Shown in pieces: positions 59,490 through 63,985 of a DNA stretch of 64,000 nucleotides. Numbering within the stretch: position 1 is the first letter of the stretch; each line of letters begins with the position of its first letter. Position numbers and translations under genes: made by a program. This DNA comes from Clytia hemisphaerica (taxonomy: Eukaryota > Cnidaria > Hydrozoa > Leptothecata > Clytiidae): contig CACVBU010000936.1 in the NCBI GenBank assembly GCA_902728285.1, positions 33,669 through 97,668 on the forward strand, written 5' to 3'. Under the pieces are notes generated by a model. It worked only from the letters and a program-made list of their open reading frames with translations, was not told the origin of the DNA and did no database searches.

Positions 59490-60914
59490 CTAAAAAGTAA
59501 AAATTTAAAATTGATGTAATCAAAGATAAGGAATTGGTTGTAAGAAAAATGTTAGGCCTATCAGGCGATTTTTCATCCCCTTTTATTCATAGAATTATAT
59601 TTCTACTTTTAGCCAGGGGTTTTTCCACTTCTTTATACTTTCAAATTGAGTTTTTAACAAAGGTATAGGCCGCGATATCCAGCTGAAGGTTGGATAACAG
59701 AGGCTGGGGGCCTTGATGAGCCCCCCCCTGTGGGTCCAGGGCAAGTTAAGGGGGCAAAGCCCCCAAAAGCTTAGCATATTTAAAAAAAAACTACATAAAA
59801 TGATGTAAAAACTGCTGCAAATGATAAAAAACTCCACTAGAATTATATATAATTTTTCCAAAGACACTCAAAAAGAGTGTGATTTTTCAAAAAGCGGAGC
59901 AAATTTTGTCTCAACTGGCACTTTGAATCAGCTAAAGTTGAAAAATTTATCAATGATCAAAGTTAATTAAATTACTGAAAATATCTAAATCACAGCTCTT
60001 TTTAAATGAAAAGATGATGAAAAGTTTCACATTTTGGAAAATTAAAAAATGAACTACAATACAAATGATAGAATCACTATTAGCAAAATAGGATAAAAGA
60101 AATACCAAAAAAAGGAAATGGTGCTTCTAAACCAGCACTCTACTACTTAATTGAATGAGCTACTGTAATGATATAGATCTGTACCAAAACAATAAAAAAA
60201 TAGGTTCCAAATAAGATGTTTCTAAAGATAAATATGGGTTTCATTTATTTTAATCATTTCAATGGGTTTAAAAAAGGGGAGAGAGGAGAGACTAAACCTA
60301 CCCAAAAAAAAGGCATAGGCCTCATAACTGACTATGAGGATCACAGCGCATAAAAATAAATTACTAAATTTGATCTTTTACTTTTTTTCTTGTAAGGCAA
60401 TTACTTTTTTATTTTCTGGTTTATGGACATTACAAGGAGAAGTTTTGGACAGGAGGATGAAAAAAAAAAAAGAAATTGATGTTTTAAATTTTTTATTTTC
60501 TTTTTAAAAATCTGAAACCGGAGGAAATAATAAATAAAATATTATGAAATTTCCTAAAGTATCGATTTTTTAGATTTAAAGACAAAAGAATAAAGTGCAA
60601 GGTGTCGTTATAGATAGAGTCTATGGATAAAAAACACTTAAAATAAACTGAAACATAAAAATGCACACACAAAGACTGATAAATGTGTATATGTAAGACT
60701 GGCATAGGTTCCCATTTAGGGCTCACCCTTAGGGTTCCCACTTAGGTTCCCTCATCCAAGTTTTCTGGTATGCCTATTTTTATATCTACTCTTGAATTTC
60801 AACAATCACATATAAAAGGCTTTAAATAAAAGTGATTACAAAAGAAAGAAAAAACGAAGAAAATCCATTGTGTACACAAAGAGTTATAATATAATTTAGT
60901 TTGTTTTTTGTGGA
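59490..60914. other. No gene recognised
   Basis: AT-rich, with short hairpins such as GGGGGCAAAGCCCCC near 59,750. No exon, RNA gene or clean transposon end was identified. Confidence 0.4.
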
Positions 60915-61530
60915 TAGGGAAATTCCATGTGGAAAGTCCCTAACATTAAGAGAAGGATCAATTGGAGCTAAACCTTAGCTCAGGTTAATTCCAAGCCGAA
61001 TGAAGTACATCCCGCCACCGCACCGAGGCGGCTATAAAATAGTATATTTCGGCTGCCGGTTATTCTTTCCTTCGCCTATATATATCCTACCGTCAAGCCC
61101 CTTTCAGCGCAGTTCAGCTCAGTCTCAATTGATCACAACATCAATCTTTCCCTCCCACCCTCTCCTTAACCCCTGTATTTTTGGTTCTGCTTTCTGCTTC
61201 TTCCTTTTCTTTTTTTTTAGTTACCAACTGCGTTCTCATCCAAGCGTGGTGATTGCTCCTGCGACGGATCCTGATCTCATGGTTTCTCCTAGGCAAGGCT
61301 GTTAACCAGAGATTAGGTCATTTGGGATGCATCATGATACGTTTAGTTCTAGTGTAGGGTTACTCCGTAACCGTTGCATGTCAGTAGTCAGTTACTTAGA
61401 TTCATCCCCTAAGGTCAAGGATCCAGTTAGATCTGGATTAGGTTCGCACACTGTAGTCCCAACGGTGTTAAGTCGCCAGGGCAACCTCCCTGTTTATTTT
61501 TTAGCCTCCGTCTTATACGGGGCGTATAAG
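60915..61530 (+). other. Hairpin-rich region with a TATA box
   Basis: Successive local inverted repeats: TAGGGA..TCCCTA with inner TTCCA/TGGAA (60,916-60,944), AGCTAA..TTAGCT (60,967), CCGCC..GGCGG (61,010), GTTAC..GTAAC, CTTAG..CTAAG, ATCCAG..CTGGAT, ACACTG..CGGTGT and CAGGG..CCCTG (61,360-61,495). GGCTATAAAATAG at 61,029 is a good TATA box. No coding frame was recognised. It may be an LTR or the leader of an unidentified transposon. Confidence 0.45.
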
Positions 61531-61668
61531 TCTCCGTCATCAAAACGGGGCTTATCAACCTCCATCATCAAAACGGGGCTAGGCGACACCTGTCATCAAA
61601 ACAGGCTAAGTAAGACCCCCGTCATATATAAAAACGGGTTACACAGGACACCCGTCGTCAAAACGGGT
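61506..61668 (+). repeat. Array of six hairpins with a shared stem design
   Basis: Hairpins at 61506-61522, 61532-61550, 61560-61578, 61589-61605, 61618-61638 and 61650-61668. Each has a CCGT-type 5' arm, a short loop (usually CATCAAA) and an ACGG-type 3' arm. One unit changes both arms together (CCTGT with ACAGG instead of CCCGT with ACGGG). Others use G-U pairs (CTCCGT with ACGGGG). Spacing is 26-32 bases. Not CRISPR-like: spacers are too short and the context is eukaryotic. Confidence 0.7.
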
Positions 61669-62255
61669 TAGGCTCTCAGTTATATATATATCTTGATGCA
61701 TCCCCAATGTCATCCCAAGTTCTATTATACATTTTCGGCATTCTTGTTTACGTTTCGAAATATACTGTTTCCATTACTGCACACTTATGTCTCTATTCTA
61801 TTTCCTCTGTTGCTCATATCCTTTGGTACCTAGATCAGTGTATTTCGACCACTTTCAAAAACTTCTCATCTTGCCTCCTCAGTCTGCCTTTTTTGTGTTT
61901 TTATTCCTAGGGCCTTATACTTTAATTGCATCTGAGACGTGGGAATTAAAGTATCTTTACCGTAAACCAATAAATGTATTTATTGAAAAAAATTATTTGC
62001 CTAAAAGAAAATAATAAACTCTTTCAAATTGAAAGGGGATGTAAAACTTCAATCTGTCAATCATTTTCTCAAGCAAAGAGTAGGCGAAGCGATTCTATTA
62101 CGATAGTGCCGCGGTAAATCAATGGATAGTATTCAAATATCATTATCCCTTTATTTTCATTCCTAGCACTTTTGCAAAAAATAGGAAAAACAGAAAAGTT
62201 GTATTTTTTACTGCTCTATTCACATACTGAATTTGAAAGATCTTTGAAAGAAATA
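61669..62255. other. No gene recognised
   Basis: Pyrimidine-rich then AT-rich sequence with two overlapping short frames at about 61.7-62.0 kb that show no family similarity. The phrase TTTTTACTGCTCT.T.CACATACTGAATTTG at 62,206-62,235 recurs at 31,060-31,095. Confidence 0.4.
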
Positions 62256-62390
62256 TTTATGTAGTCCAGCCATAAAAACAATGATAGAGCCATGCATAAT
62301 TACTGTATCATGCATATTGTAATAATTATGCATGGTTCATTGTTTTTCTGCTGGACTACATAATTATTCAACAGGGTGGCCTCTTTGAAG
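62256..62390. mobile_element. MITE family M1, copy 2
   Basis: Palindromic arms TGTAGTCCAGC..AAAACAATGAT and complement around ATGCATAATTA, as at 1.1-1.29 kb. Its right end (CTCTTTGAA) is interrupted by the 62,391 element. Confidence 0.75.
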
Positions 62391-62976
62391 ACGACCCTCG
62401 ACATGGCCCGAGAATTCTCGGGCCTCTTCGGGCCATGTTCGGGCCGAGAGACCCTATCAATTCTTTTGGCCCGAACTTGACCCGAATCATTCGGGCCACG
62501 TTCGGGCTACGACTTAAGACGTAAACTGTTCAACCTATACCTTTGTGCCTGTGTCAGATGATTCCATTGATTAATCCAGCTTGTCCAGTCATAATGAAAT
62601 TAAAACGTGAAAATGACGTTGAAAATGTGTGAAAATGTTAATTTTATTTTATTTCGTCGCGTTTCATCCAGTTCATCTTGCTAAAAATAAACTTAACAAA
62701 CTCCTCGTGGACCACGCTTCAAAGTTTAAAACCAGGACCAGTTTAATAGCAAATATTTAAGTGAAATCAAGTTTTTCTAGAGAAAATATTGAAAAAATGC
62801 AGTCCTGAAATTACACGCGGGTTTAAATCATGATTTCAAAAGTTAGCCTGCGTGTGGCCCGCGTGAGGCCTGCCCGCGGCCCGAAAACTCGGGCCATGCT
62901 TGGGCCATCCTCGGGCTTTATGCGCATTCCAATAAAAGTTTTGGCCCGAGAATTCTCGGGCCATGTCGAGGGTCGT
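62391..62976. mobile_element. 586-bp TIR element with nested palindromic ends
   Basis: Perfect 34-base inverted ends starting ACGACCCTCGACATGG. Each end itself contains the palindrome GGCCCGAGAATTCTCGGGCC. Flanks CTTTGAAG (62383-62390) and CTTTGAAA (62977-62984) form an 8-base duplication with one mismatch, hAT-like. GGGCC/GGCCC words fill both subterminal regions. No transposase. Confidence 0.8.
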
Positions 62977-62984
62977 CTTTGAAA

Positions 62985-63985
62985 AAAGGTCTATAATTAT
63001 GTACTCCAGCATAAAAACAATGATACAGCCATGCATAATTACTGTATCATGCATATTTAAAAAAATTATGCATCAGTGTAGCTGGAACCTCGATATTCCA
63101 GGATTAGAAAAAGCTATACCTGTTATCTTTTTTCTTTAAAGAATCAACAAGCCATCAACATCGATAAATTACACACATTTACTCAGAGAAACTTTTAAAA
63201 TTATCTGCCATTATGACTTTCTTGAAGCCGTTCTGAAATGAACCAATCGGGTTATGAATCGGAATTCCTATGGGAGTTCTTTTCCGAAATTTGTAAAATA
63301 GCTAAGTCGGCAAAAAAAATTTTCCCGGGGTTTGAGGGAAAAACAGAACTGCTGTCATTTGTTTTTTATTTAACCAGATATTTGAATTTGGGCTCAAAAA
63401 TATTTAAATAAATAAGTTAATAGTATTCAATATACTATTTGTATCTATCAGAAAATAAAACACTTACAGAACGACATCGTTTATCATTTGGAATACCCCC
63501 GTATTTGGACCATTCTATGGTGGGCGCAAAATAGGGCGGAAACTAAGTAGCACCCTCAGTGCAAGATTGCTGCCTCATCTTTATTCGCCCGCGCGAGAAT
63601 GCGAGCTAATCATTTATTTCTCACGCGCTCAAGGGGAAAGGAAAGTGATCGATATTCTTTGAAGGAAAAACGTCAGAAACAAACCCAAAGACCAAAAGAT
63701 GTATATATTTTGTTGTTGACAATCGATCCTGTGAAGATGAAAAAATTTCTGCTTTGCGTTTTTTTCGGAACGCTGAAAAACTCTAATTTCGATCACCCTT
63801 TAAGATAAAGAGGTTGCGAGATTTGGGTTAGCGAGGCAGGCAAAAATTGCTAAAAAGCTGGTAAAATCGTAATCCTCAAAAATCGATGTTCCAGCCTCAC
63901 TGTGCATGGCTGTATCATTGTTTTTATGCTGGAGTACATAATTATTCAACATGGCTGCCTCTTTAAAAAATGGTCTATTGCCAAT
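62985..63985. mobile_element. MITE family M1, copy 3, split by a hAT-like insertion
   Basis: The left arm (62,990-63,073) and right arm (63,903-63,985) are the two complementary halves of an M1 palindrome (ACTCCAGCATAAAAACAATG and complement). They are separated by the 829-bp insertion at 63,074-63,902. Confidence 0.7.
63074..63902. mobile_element. 829-bp CAGTG-ended element, 5-bp target duplication
   Basis: Starts CAGTGTAGCTGGAAC and ends GTTCCAGCCTCACTG, flanked by TGCAT on both sides (63069-63073 and 63903-63907), a duplication within the M1 palindrome. CAGTG ends and a 5-bp duplication fit hAT5-type elements. The interior frames have no recognised transposase. Confidence 0.8.

Follow-up and report, generated by a model that had tools for sequence, protein, structure and literature searches.

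A hairpin array in the hydrozoan Clytia hemisphaerica lies in the 3′ repeat of a Ngaro-like tyrosine-recombinase retrotransposon and is probably part of a structured RNA domain

Whether a run of regularly spaced hairpins of one stem design marks a selected RNA structure, and in what kind of element it resides, is the question raised by a 64,000-nucleotide stretch of the Clytia hemisphaerica genome (contig CACVBU010000936.1, positions 33,669–97,668), hereafter called the window. Six units had been predicted there from the sequence alone, and all six were recovered at 61506–61668 with a start-to-start spacing of 26–32 nt, including the one said to carry an A–C mismatch:

61506..61522, plus strand: array hairpin 1, CTCCGT/ACGGGG
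61532..61550, plus strand: array hairpin 2, CTCCGT/ACGGGG
61560..61578, plus strand: array hairpin 3, CTCCAT/ACGGGG, with an A–C mismatch that is private to the window copy among 30 copies of the B repeat (see below)
61589..61605, plus strand: array hairpin 4, CCTGT/ACAGG
61618..61638, plus strand: array hairpin 5, CCCGT/ACGGG
61650..61668, plus strand: array hairpin 6, ACCCGT/ACGGGT, at the same position in B as the hairpins of related families, before TTAGGC/ATAGGC

The array also folded better than shuffled sequence. For the 176-nt array region, the plus strand gave a z score of −3.27 (1 of 200 shuffles as good) and the minus strand −4.54 (0 of 200). A strict hairpin finder returned four hairpins without overlap, whereas shuffles averaged 0.93 and reached four in 2 of 1,000 cases; the four found were units 2, 4, and 6 and an alternative pairing at 61512–61530 that overlaps unit 1. 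When the array was folded without constraints, the six hairpins were not all formed separately.

The array sits within a 988-bp dispersed repeat, which is a solo AB repeat of a Ngaro-like (DIRS-order) tyrosine-recombinase retrotransposon. Its parts are as follows:

60962..61949, plus strand: solo A-A′-B copy of a Ngaro-like split-direct-repeat retrotransposon, with the ends TTGGAGC... and ...GGGAATTAA and no target site duplication
60962..61150, plus strand: A repeat, the 189 bp common to A1 and A2
61033-61039 and 61077-61085: TATA-like motifs in the A repeat, with a putative promoter role
61151..61351, plus strand: A′ region, found on the 3′ side only, between A2 and B2, and containing P2 and the 5′ strand of P1
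61352..61949, plus strand: B repeat, 598 bp, present as B1 and B2 in the full element
61358..61372, plus strand: P3 hairpin GGTTAC-TCC-GTAACC, at the start of B

A search of the genome (417 Mb) with 60900–62100 of the window gave at least 58 matches (40 of 1,180 first-look candidates were scored). The termini of the repeat were fixed, and a search with the 5′ pattern identified 48 exact ends, 25 forward and 23 reverse, whereas the backward control identified none. Among 14 insertions with both flanks available, an abutting direct repeat of at least 3 bp was absent at 13, and one of 3 bp was found at the other (L036). The element occurs as a short A-A′-B form of approximately 0.99 kb, the type found in the window, as a long A...X-B form of approximately 3.5 kb, and as both in tandem. 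The listed copies of the long form contained no long open frame, and decayed recombinase remnants lay beside B at some sites (e.g., C197, C380, and C30). A hairpin identical or similar to P3 also opens B in L043, L045, L048, L049, L053, and L059.

The coding capacity of the element was found in a relative on C788 (L038 and L013), whose termini are identical to those of the window element and whose layout is A1-gag-like-RT/RNaseH-YR-B1-A2-B2. Its first ORF (407 amino acids) contains a CCHC-like zinc knuckle, a match below the Pfam cut-off. The second, in L038, encodes an RT/RNase H of 641 amino acids (RVT_1, E = 1.2e-12; RNase H matches below the curated cut-off), and the third a tyrosine recombinase of 356 amino acids. 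The recombinase had no Pfam match; its best PDB match was Cre (whole-sequence E = 0.003), with the HxxR motif and the tyrosine aligned and a C-terminal part that is weak by itself, and it also matched integrase and XerA weakly (E = 0.13–0.18). No methyltransferase family occurred among the Pfam matches of the three ORFs of L038, the one coding copy scanned. The split direct repeats A1...B1-A2-B2 were present in L035 and L036 and, together with ORFs, in L038 and L013. When the genome was searched with the C788 recombinase, 118 matches were obtained, and the 3′ ends of 18 of these were retrieved. Direct repeats of B were present in 12 of the 18 and were not found in L047, L053, L055, L057, L058, and L060. 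In ten insertions (L043–L046, L048–L050, L054, L056, and L059), B1 and B2 were 99.4–100% identical, and these insertions therefore look young. The recombinases of L050 and L051 are 40% and 37% identical, respectively, to that of C788.

In the parts of the literature open to us, Ngaro elements, a superfamily of the DIRS order, are described as carrying split direct repeats in the form A1-[ORFs]-B1A2B2, an RT/RNase H, and a tyrosine recombinase (PMC8547959, PMC9210276, PMC4157794). The element described here resembles them in its split direct repeats, RT/RNase H, tyrosine recombinase, and solo AB repeats, and no methyltransferase family was found in its ORFs, the lack of this domain being what separates Ngaro from PAT/DIRS. 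An LTR retrotransposon or Penelope-like element was ruled out by the tyrosine recombinase in the coding relative, the fixed termini, the target duplications not seen, and the B1-A2-B2 order. A Helitron was considered for the absent target duplication and abandoned after the RT and recombinase ORFs turned up. A retroelement had been named as one possible home of the array, and this proved correct; the leader position suggested with it did not, because the array lies in the 3′ B repeat. The packaging role that was also suggested is possible.

The short copies seem to have arisen in place. We tabulated 49 of the 58 genome matches, leaving out nine fragments. Ten of the 23 short A..B units, some of which are truncated, directly followed a B, in the order B1-A2-B2, and 13, including the window copy, did not. 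Of 24 B-only units, 14 had no short unit after them; two 5′-truncated B pieces were placed in neither class. The resolution of circles was rejected as the origin of the short copies: it also predicts the short–long order, but 0 of 20 short units tested were directly followed by another 5′ end (as defined by the 48 exact pattern matches), so that recombination between repeats in place is the simpler explanation. Isolated AB repeats, likened to solo LTRs, have been reported for the Ngaro elements of Cafeteria, and the part of that report available to us proposes in-place repeat recombination (PMC8547959). Where B meets A, and only there, a near-perfect inverted repeat arises (GGAATTAATTGGAGCTAAACCTTAGCTCAGGTTAATTCC, e.g., L003 1498–1536), which is a candidate recombinase core site.

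To determine how the array varies, we compared 30 distinct full-length B copies from L001–L036. Units with a CRTCAAA loop numbered four in 21 copies, three in six, and five, six, and seven in one copy each. The CCTGT/ACAGG unit had been interpreted as a compensatory change relative to CCCGT/ACGGG. The double change is genuine, but because all 30 distinct copies carry the unit (one with a further change to G–U), it represents one old event, and each of its steps is a C-to-T or G-to-A change at a CpG site, as could arise through ordinary CpG decay. When the distinct CRTCAAA-loop variants were compared with the four master unit types, ten one-sided changes were counted in the inner five pairs (five to G–U, three to A–C, and two others) and no two-sided change; units 1 and 5, which have other loops, were excluded from this count. 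The array alone thus does not demonstrate selection for pairing in the window family, and within-family covariation was rejected as proof of RNA selection. Independent mutation of the two arms in other copies, which the original prediction had named as evidence against its interpretation, is what the array displays within this family, although many of the copies may be dead and merely decaying. By itself, the array is weak evidence for a selected RNA structure.

Arrays of other families differed in sequence and unit number. In L043 and L044, they consist of 20 and 21 perfect hairpins with the stem CCCGT/ACGGG and the loop C(A/G)TCTAC. L048 has five hairpins around CAACGGG(C/T)CTTTG, in which the loop is nearly constant and the outer arms covary: the own arms paired at 19 of 20 positions, a value equaled by 2 of 120 permutations, as expected because two of the units are identical. 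L049 contains a sixth hairpin of the L048 type with a T–T mismatch. The local folding z scores (plus/minus strand) were −2.9/−4.9 in the window, −3.0/−5.7 in L043, −1.1/−3.7 in L013, −1.2/−2.8 in L059, −1.8/−1.5 in L048, −1.3/+1.5 in L051, −0.9/−0.5 in L053, −1.0/+0.9 in L045, +1.2/−0.5 in L046, and +0.7/+0.5 in L049. The idea of a hairpin array in every family was rejected, since the arrays of L045, L046, and L049 were no better than shuffles.

Strong evidence came from the sequences surrounding the array. In A2-A′-B2, a long-range helix of 19 pairs between A′ and B (P1) closes the array and is directly preceded by a stem–loop with a 9-bp stem (P2):

61270..61317, plus strand: P2 stem–loop, CCTGATCTC (61270–61278) paired with GAGATTAGG (61309–61317), covarying across families
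61319..61339, plus strand: 5′ strand of P1, in A′
61689..61709, plus strand: 3′ strand of P1, in B, sharing bases with the segment CCCCAATG..., which is the partner of X where B is present as B1

Around B1, the closing helix is another one (PX), formed by the segment CCCCAATG... of B1 and X, a unique sequence just upstream of B1 in the long copies. The PX site in B overlaps the P1 site, and because the two helices share B bases, B1 and B2 have the potential to fold with different unique flanks. P1 was tested in nine of the 27 loci with an A′ anchor, the remainder being mostly near-duplicates, P2 in nine loci, and PX in 12; all families are from one genome, and close relatives are included (three loci of the window clade each for P1 and P2 and four for PX). 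When the strands were exchanged among loci, the mean energy of P1 changed from −29.2 to −22.0 kcal/mol (25 of 20,000 permutations as good as the own pairing), that of PX from −32.0 to −26.3 kcal/mol (0 of 20,000), and that of P2 from −17.3 to −11.2 kcal/mol (0 of 20,000). With one strand shuffled, 20 of the 21 P1 and PX helices were matched by at most 3 of 2,000 shuffles, the weak exception being the PX of L053 (73 of 2,000). Within 900 nt downstream, the best partner of X was the equivalent C-rich site in B in all 11 loci. This site reads CCCCA(A/G)TG in nine loci and CCCCAATA in L050; in L051, it is a different C-rich stretch, and PX there was weak against shuffles (24 of 2,000 as good). The PX helix was absent in L052 (771 of 2,000 shuffles as good), and L050, L051, and L052 yielded no P1 anchors.

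The pairs themselves bear on the strand. With G–U not favored in the pairing and close relatives included, P1 comprised 159 Watson–Crick, 2 G–U, 0 A–C, and 13 other pairs, and PX comprised 216, 20, 4, and 19, respectively. The excess of G–U over A–C (22 versus 4) points to plus-strand RNA, although in the PX of L048, which holds three of the four PX A–C pairs, A–C exceeded G–U by 3 to 1. The whole domain of the window (61262–61715) folded with a z score of −5.74 on the plus strand (0 of 100 shuffles as good) and −6.56 on the minus strand; because it also folds well on the minus strand, the strand assignment rests on the G–U counts. P1 or PX pairs appeared in the minimum-energy folds of all 20 stretches.

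The arms of P2 differ among families, as in L059 (CCTAGTCCC/GGGACTAGG), L048 and L049 (CCTTGTTTC/GAAACAAGG), and L046 (GTTGGTCCT/AGGACCGAC). A MAFFT alignment of eight loci, with L046 slightly out of register, showed pairing in 98.6% of the cells of the 9-bp helix and changes on both sides at five of the nine positions. The covariation score of the whole 13-pair P2 structure was 0.429, against 0.233 when shuffled (0 of 500 as high) and at most 0.179 in slid controls, whereas its further pair types (10) were not above those of shuffles (10.8). Taken together, compensatory changes have preserved P1, P2, and PX among the families, which is strong evidence for a selected RNA structure. The view that covariation in this region reflects selection on RNA structure is therefore upheld for these helices outside the array and not for the array arms, which drift one-sidedly.

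In six sampled families, P2 also resembles the ENE (element for nuclear expression), a triple-helix element and poly(A)-protecting device that is reported mostly from plants and fungi in the passages of PMC12501189 that we could consult. Tracts of at least five U per side face each other across the internal loop of P2 in L043, L045, L046, L048, and L049, as do tracts with four U on the 5′ side in L059, and these loops are flanked by GG/CC, except in L046, where one flanking pair is missing. In the window clade, the facing tracts are interrupted (UUUCU/CUGUU) and thus lack the U runs of an ENE. The likeness to the ENE of Evade/Copia93, as described in the accessible part of PMC12501189, consists of a U-rich internal loop with G–C flanks in the 3′ untranslated part of a retrotransposon (here in the relatives among L043–L059, L046 being one pair short). 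In contrast to that plant LTR element, the present one is an animal tyrosine-recombinase element in which the window U tracts are interrupted, a triple helix is a prediction, and the stem–loop is joined to a long-range closing helix and an array. Upstream of P2, at 61151–61230 of the window and in the A′ of L045, L046, L048, and L049, a CCTCCCACCC-type tract is followed by a polypyrimidine-AG that resembles a 3′ splice site.

A genome search with the pattern GGTTTTTCC-N4-20-GGTTTTTTA yielded 15 matches, against six in the backward control. Seven of the 15 were in family loci (L045, L048, L049, L056, and L061–L063), and three further ones were approximately 1 kb from recombinase matches. Among the others, L065 and L066 have no such stem, and C905 and C796 were matched by the pattern alone. 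L064 (C244:392300-393700) contains an ENE-like stem–loop at 365–401 of the locus (GGG-UUUUU-CCUCC...GGAGG-UUUUUU...CCC), with none of the other searched motifs of the Ngaro-like element nearby.

The one-sided drift of the array could mean that it is a neutral minisatellite, in which slippage within the retrotransposon repeat duplicated a single ancestral hairpin, the last unit, and only the surrounding helices matter. The range of three to seven CRTCAAA-loop units per copy and the arrays of L045, L046, and L049, which are no more stable than shuffles, are also consistent with such an origin. It accounts less well for the separate arrays of L043 and L044, with 20 and 21 perfect units around another loop, for the covarying constant-loop hairpins of L048, for the three array hairpins retained by the coding copy, and for the last hairpin, which keeps its position across families with an exchange of C–G to A–T. 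We consider a neutral array possible, with the balance tilting against it. Slightly more doubtful is the interpretation of P2 as a genuine ENE clamping the poly(A) tail, with the array and P1 merely spacing or shielding it. The GG/CC-flanked facing U tracts of the six relatives (save the missing pair of L046) argue for it, as does the finding, in the passages of PMC12501189 seen, that an ENE in the 3′ UTR of a retrotransposon stabilizes its RNA. The window clade nevertheless has UUUCU/CUGUU in place of U runs, no Rfam match was above the gathering score, and the six chance matches of the backward control temper the 15 matches of the genome pattern.

Tyrosine recombinase core sites consist of inverted arms around a spacer of 6–8 bp, and the inverted repeats might instead act as DNA, either as binding or core sites of the recombinase or as cruciforms, in integration or the resolution of a circular intermediate. 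The units of the array, with arms of 5–6 bp around 5–11 nt, and the near-perfect inverted repeat at the B|A junction are compatible with this. However, DNA pairing does not predict the 22:4 ratio of G–U to A–C in P1 and PX, the arms of L048 vary around a nearly constant loop, and the insertions terminate at the ends of A and B rather than within the array. A role as DNA is accordingly improbable. A hammerhead or other known RNA was rejected: Rfam returned nothing above its gathering scores in the whole window, and a search of 12 related loci by E-value gave 11 weak matches, all below the gathering scores.

We conclude that the array hairpins probably belong to a structured 3′ RNA domain in the Ngaro-like retrotransposon. 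Judging from sequence, this domain is most likely cis-acting and serves the expression or copying of the element itself. Transcription would start from the TATA-like motifs in A and run through the domain, which may then act in cis within the transcript in RNA stability, recognition, or copying. A stable 3′ scaffold might shield the RNA, as the ENE-like P2 of the relatives suggests, and/or bind the element's own Gag or RT, with the hairpin array as a putative repeated binding site that grows by tandem duplication. Non-autonomous copies might retain the array so as to exploit the proteins of their partner. Tandem protein-binding stem–loops, known as packaging signals, occur in viral and retroelement RNAs. 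The array resembles them in repeating one small hairpin design within a genomic RNA; it differs in that it lies in the 3′ repeat, that its unit number and sequence vary between families, and that its binding partner is putative.

A bolder proposal, which we think unlikely as a whole, is that of a two-state 3′ domain conserved in Ngaro-like elements. Of the B segment around CCCCAATG, overlapping parts would be engaged by X in the first B copy and by A′ in the second, which would let the RNA itself tell B1 and B2 apart; just upstream of the second, an ENE-like stem–loop would clamp the poly(A), and the family-specific array in the closed loop would provide a handle for element proteins. It is speculation that the alternative between P1 and PX functions as a switch. 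The element belongs to a known kind; its RNA domain seems to be a previously undescribed feature. The hairpin array, closing helices, and ENE-like stem–loop distinguish it from the Ngaro elements described in the passages of PMC8547959, PMC9210276, and PMC4157794 available to us, which describe none of these, and the words "hairpin" and "secondary structure" are absent from the main texts of PMC9210276 and PMC8547959. A literature search, which reached few subscription papers, found no described RNA structure for DIRS-order elements.

The copying of split repeats by DIRS-order elements and the recognition of their own RNA are, to our knowledge, poorly understood, and we know of no defined cis-acting RNA structure in tyrosine-recombinase retrotransposons. 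If the two-state domain is real, it would be the first of its kind in these elements and would have implications for the copying of split direct repeats. With the ENE-like stem–loop, the range of a poly(A)-protecting device would come to include a tyrosine-recombinase retroelement of an animal. Lying exactly within the repeats, closed by different partners in B1 and B2, and retained by non-autonomous copies, the covarying domain offers a concrete experimental target.

Other sequences encountered during the searches lie outside the element. MITE-like palindromes, whose arms include GTAGTCCAGC / GCTGGACTAC, occupy 62252–62368 of the window, with similar sequence at approximately 63001–63090 and 63896–63960. 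Between the MITE-like copies, units of the CGGGCCATG type, each 11 bp long, cluster in both orientations at 62391–62520 and 62846–62960. L037 (C900:5-967) is on a mitochondrial contig whose combination of COB and COX1 suggests a cnidarian- or sponge-like animal; COX1 comes after COB and is cut by the contig end.
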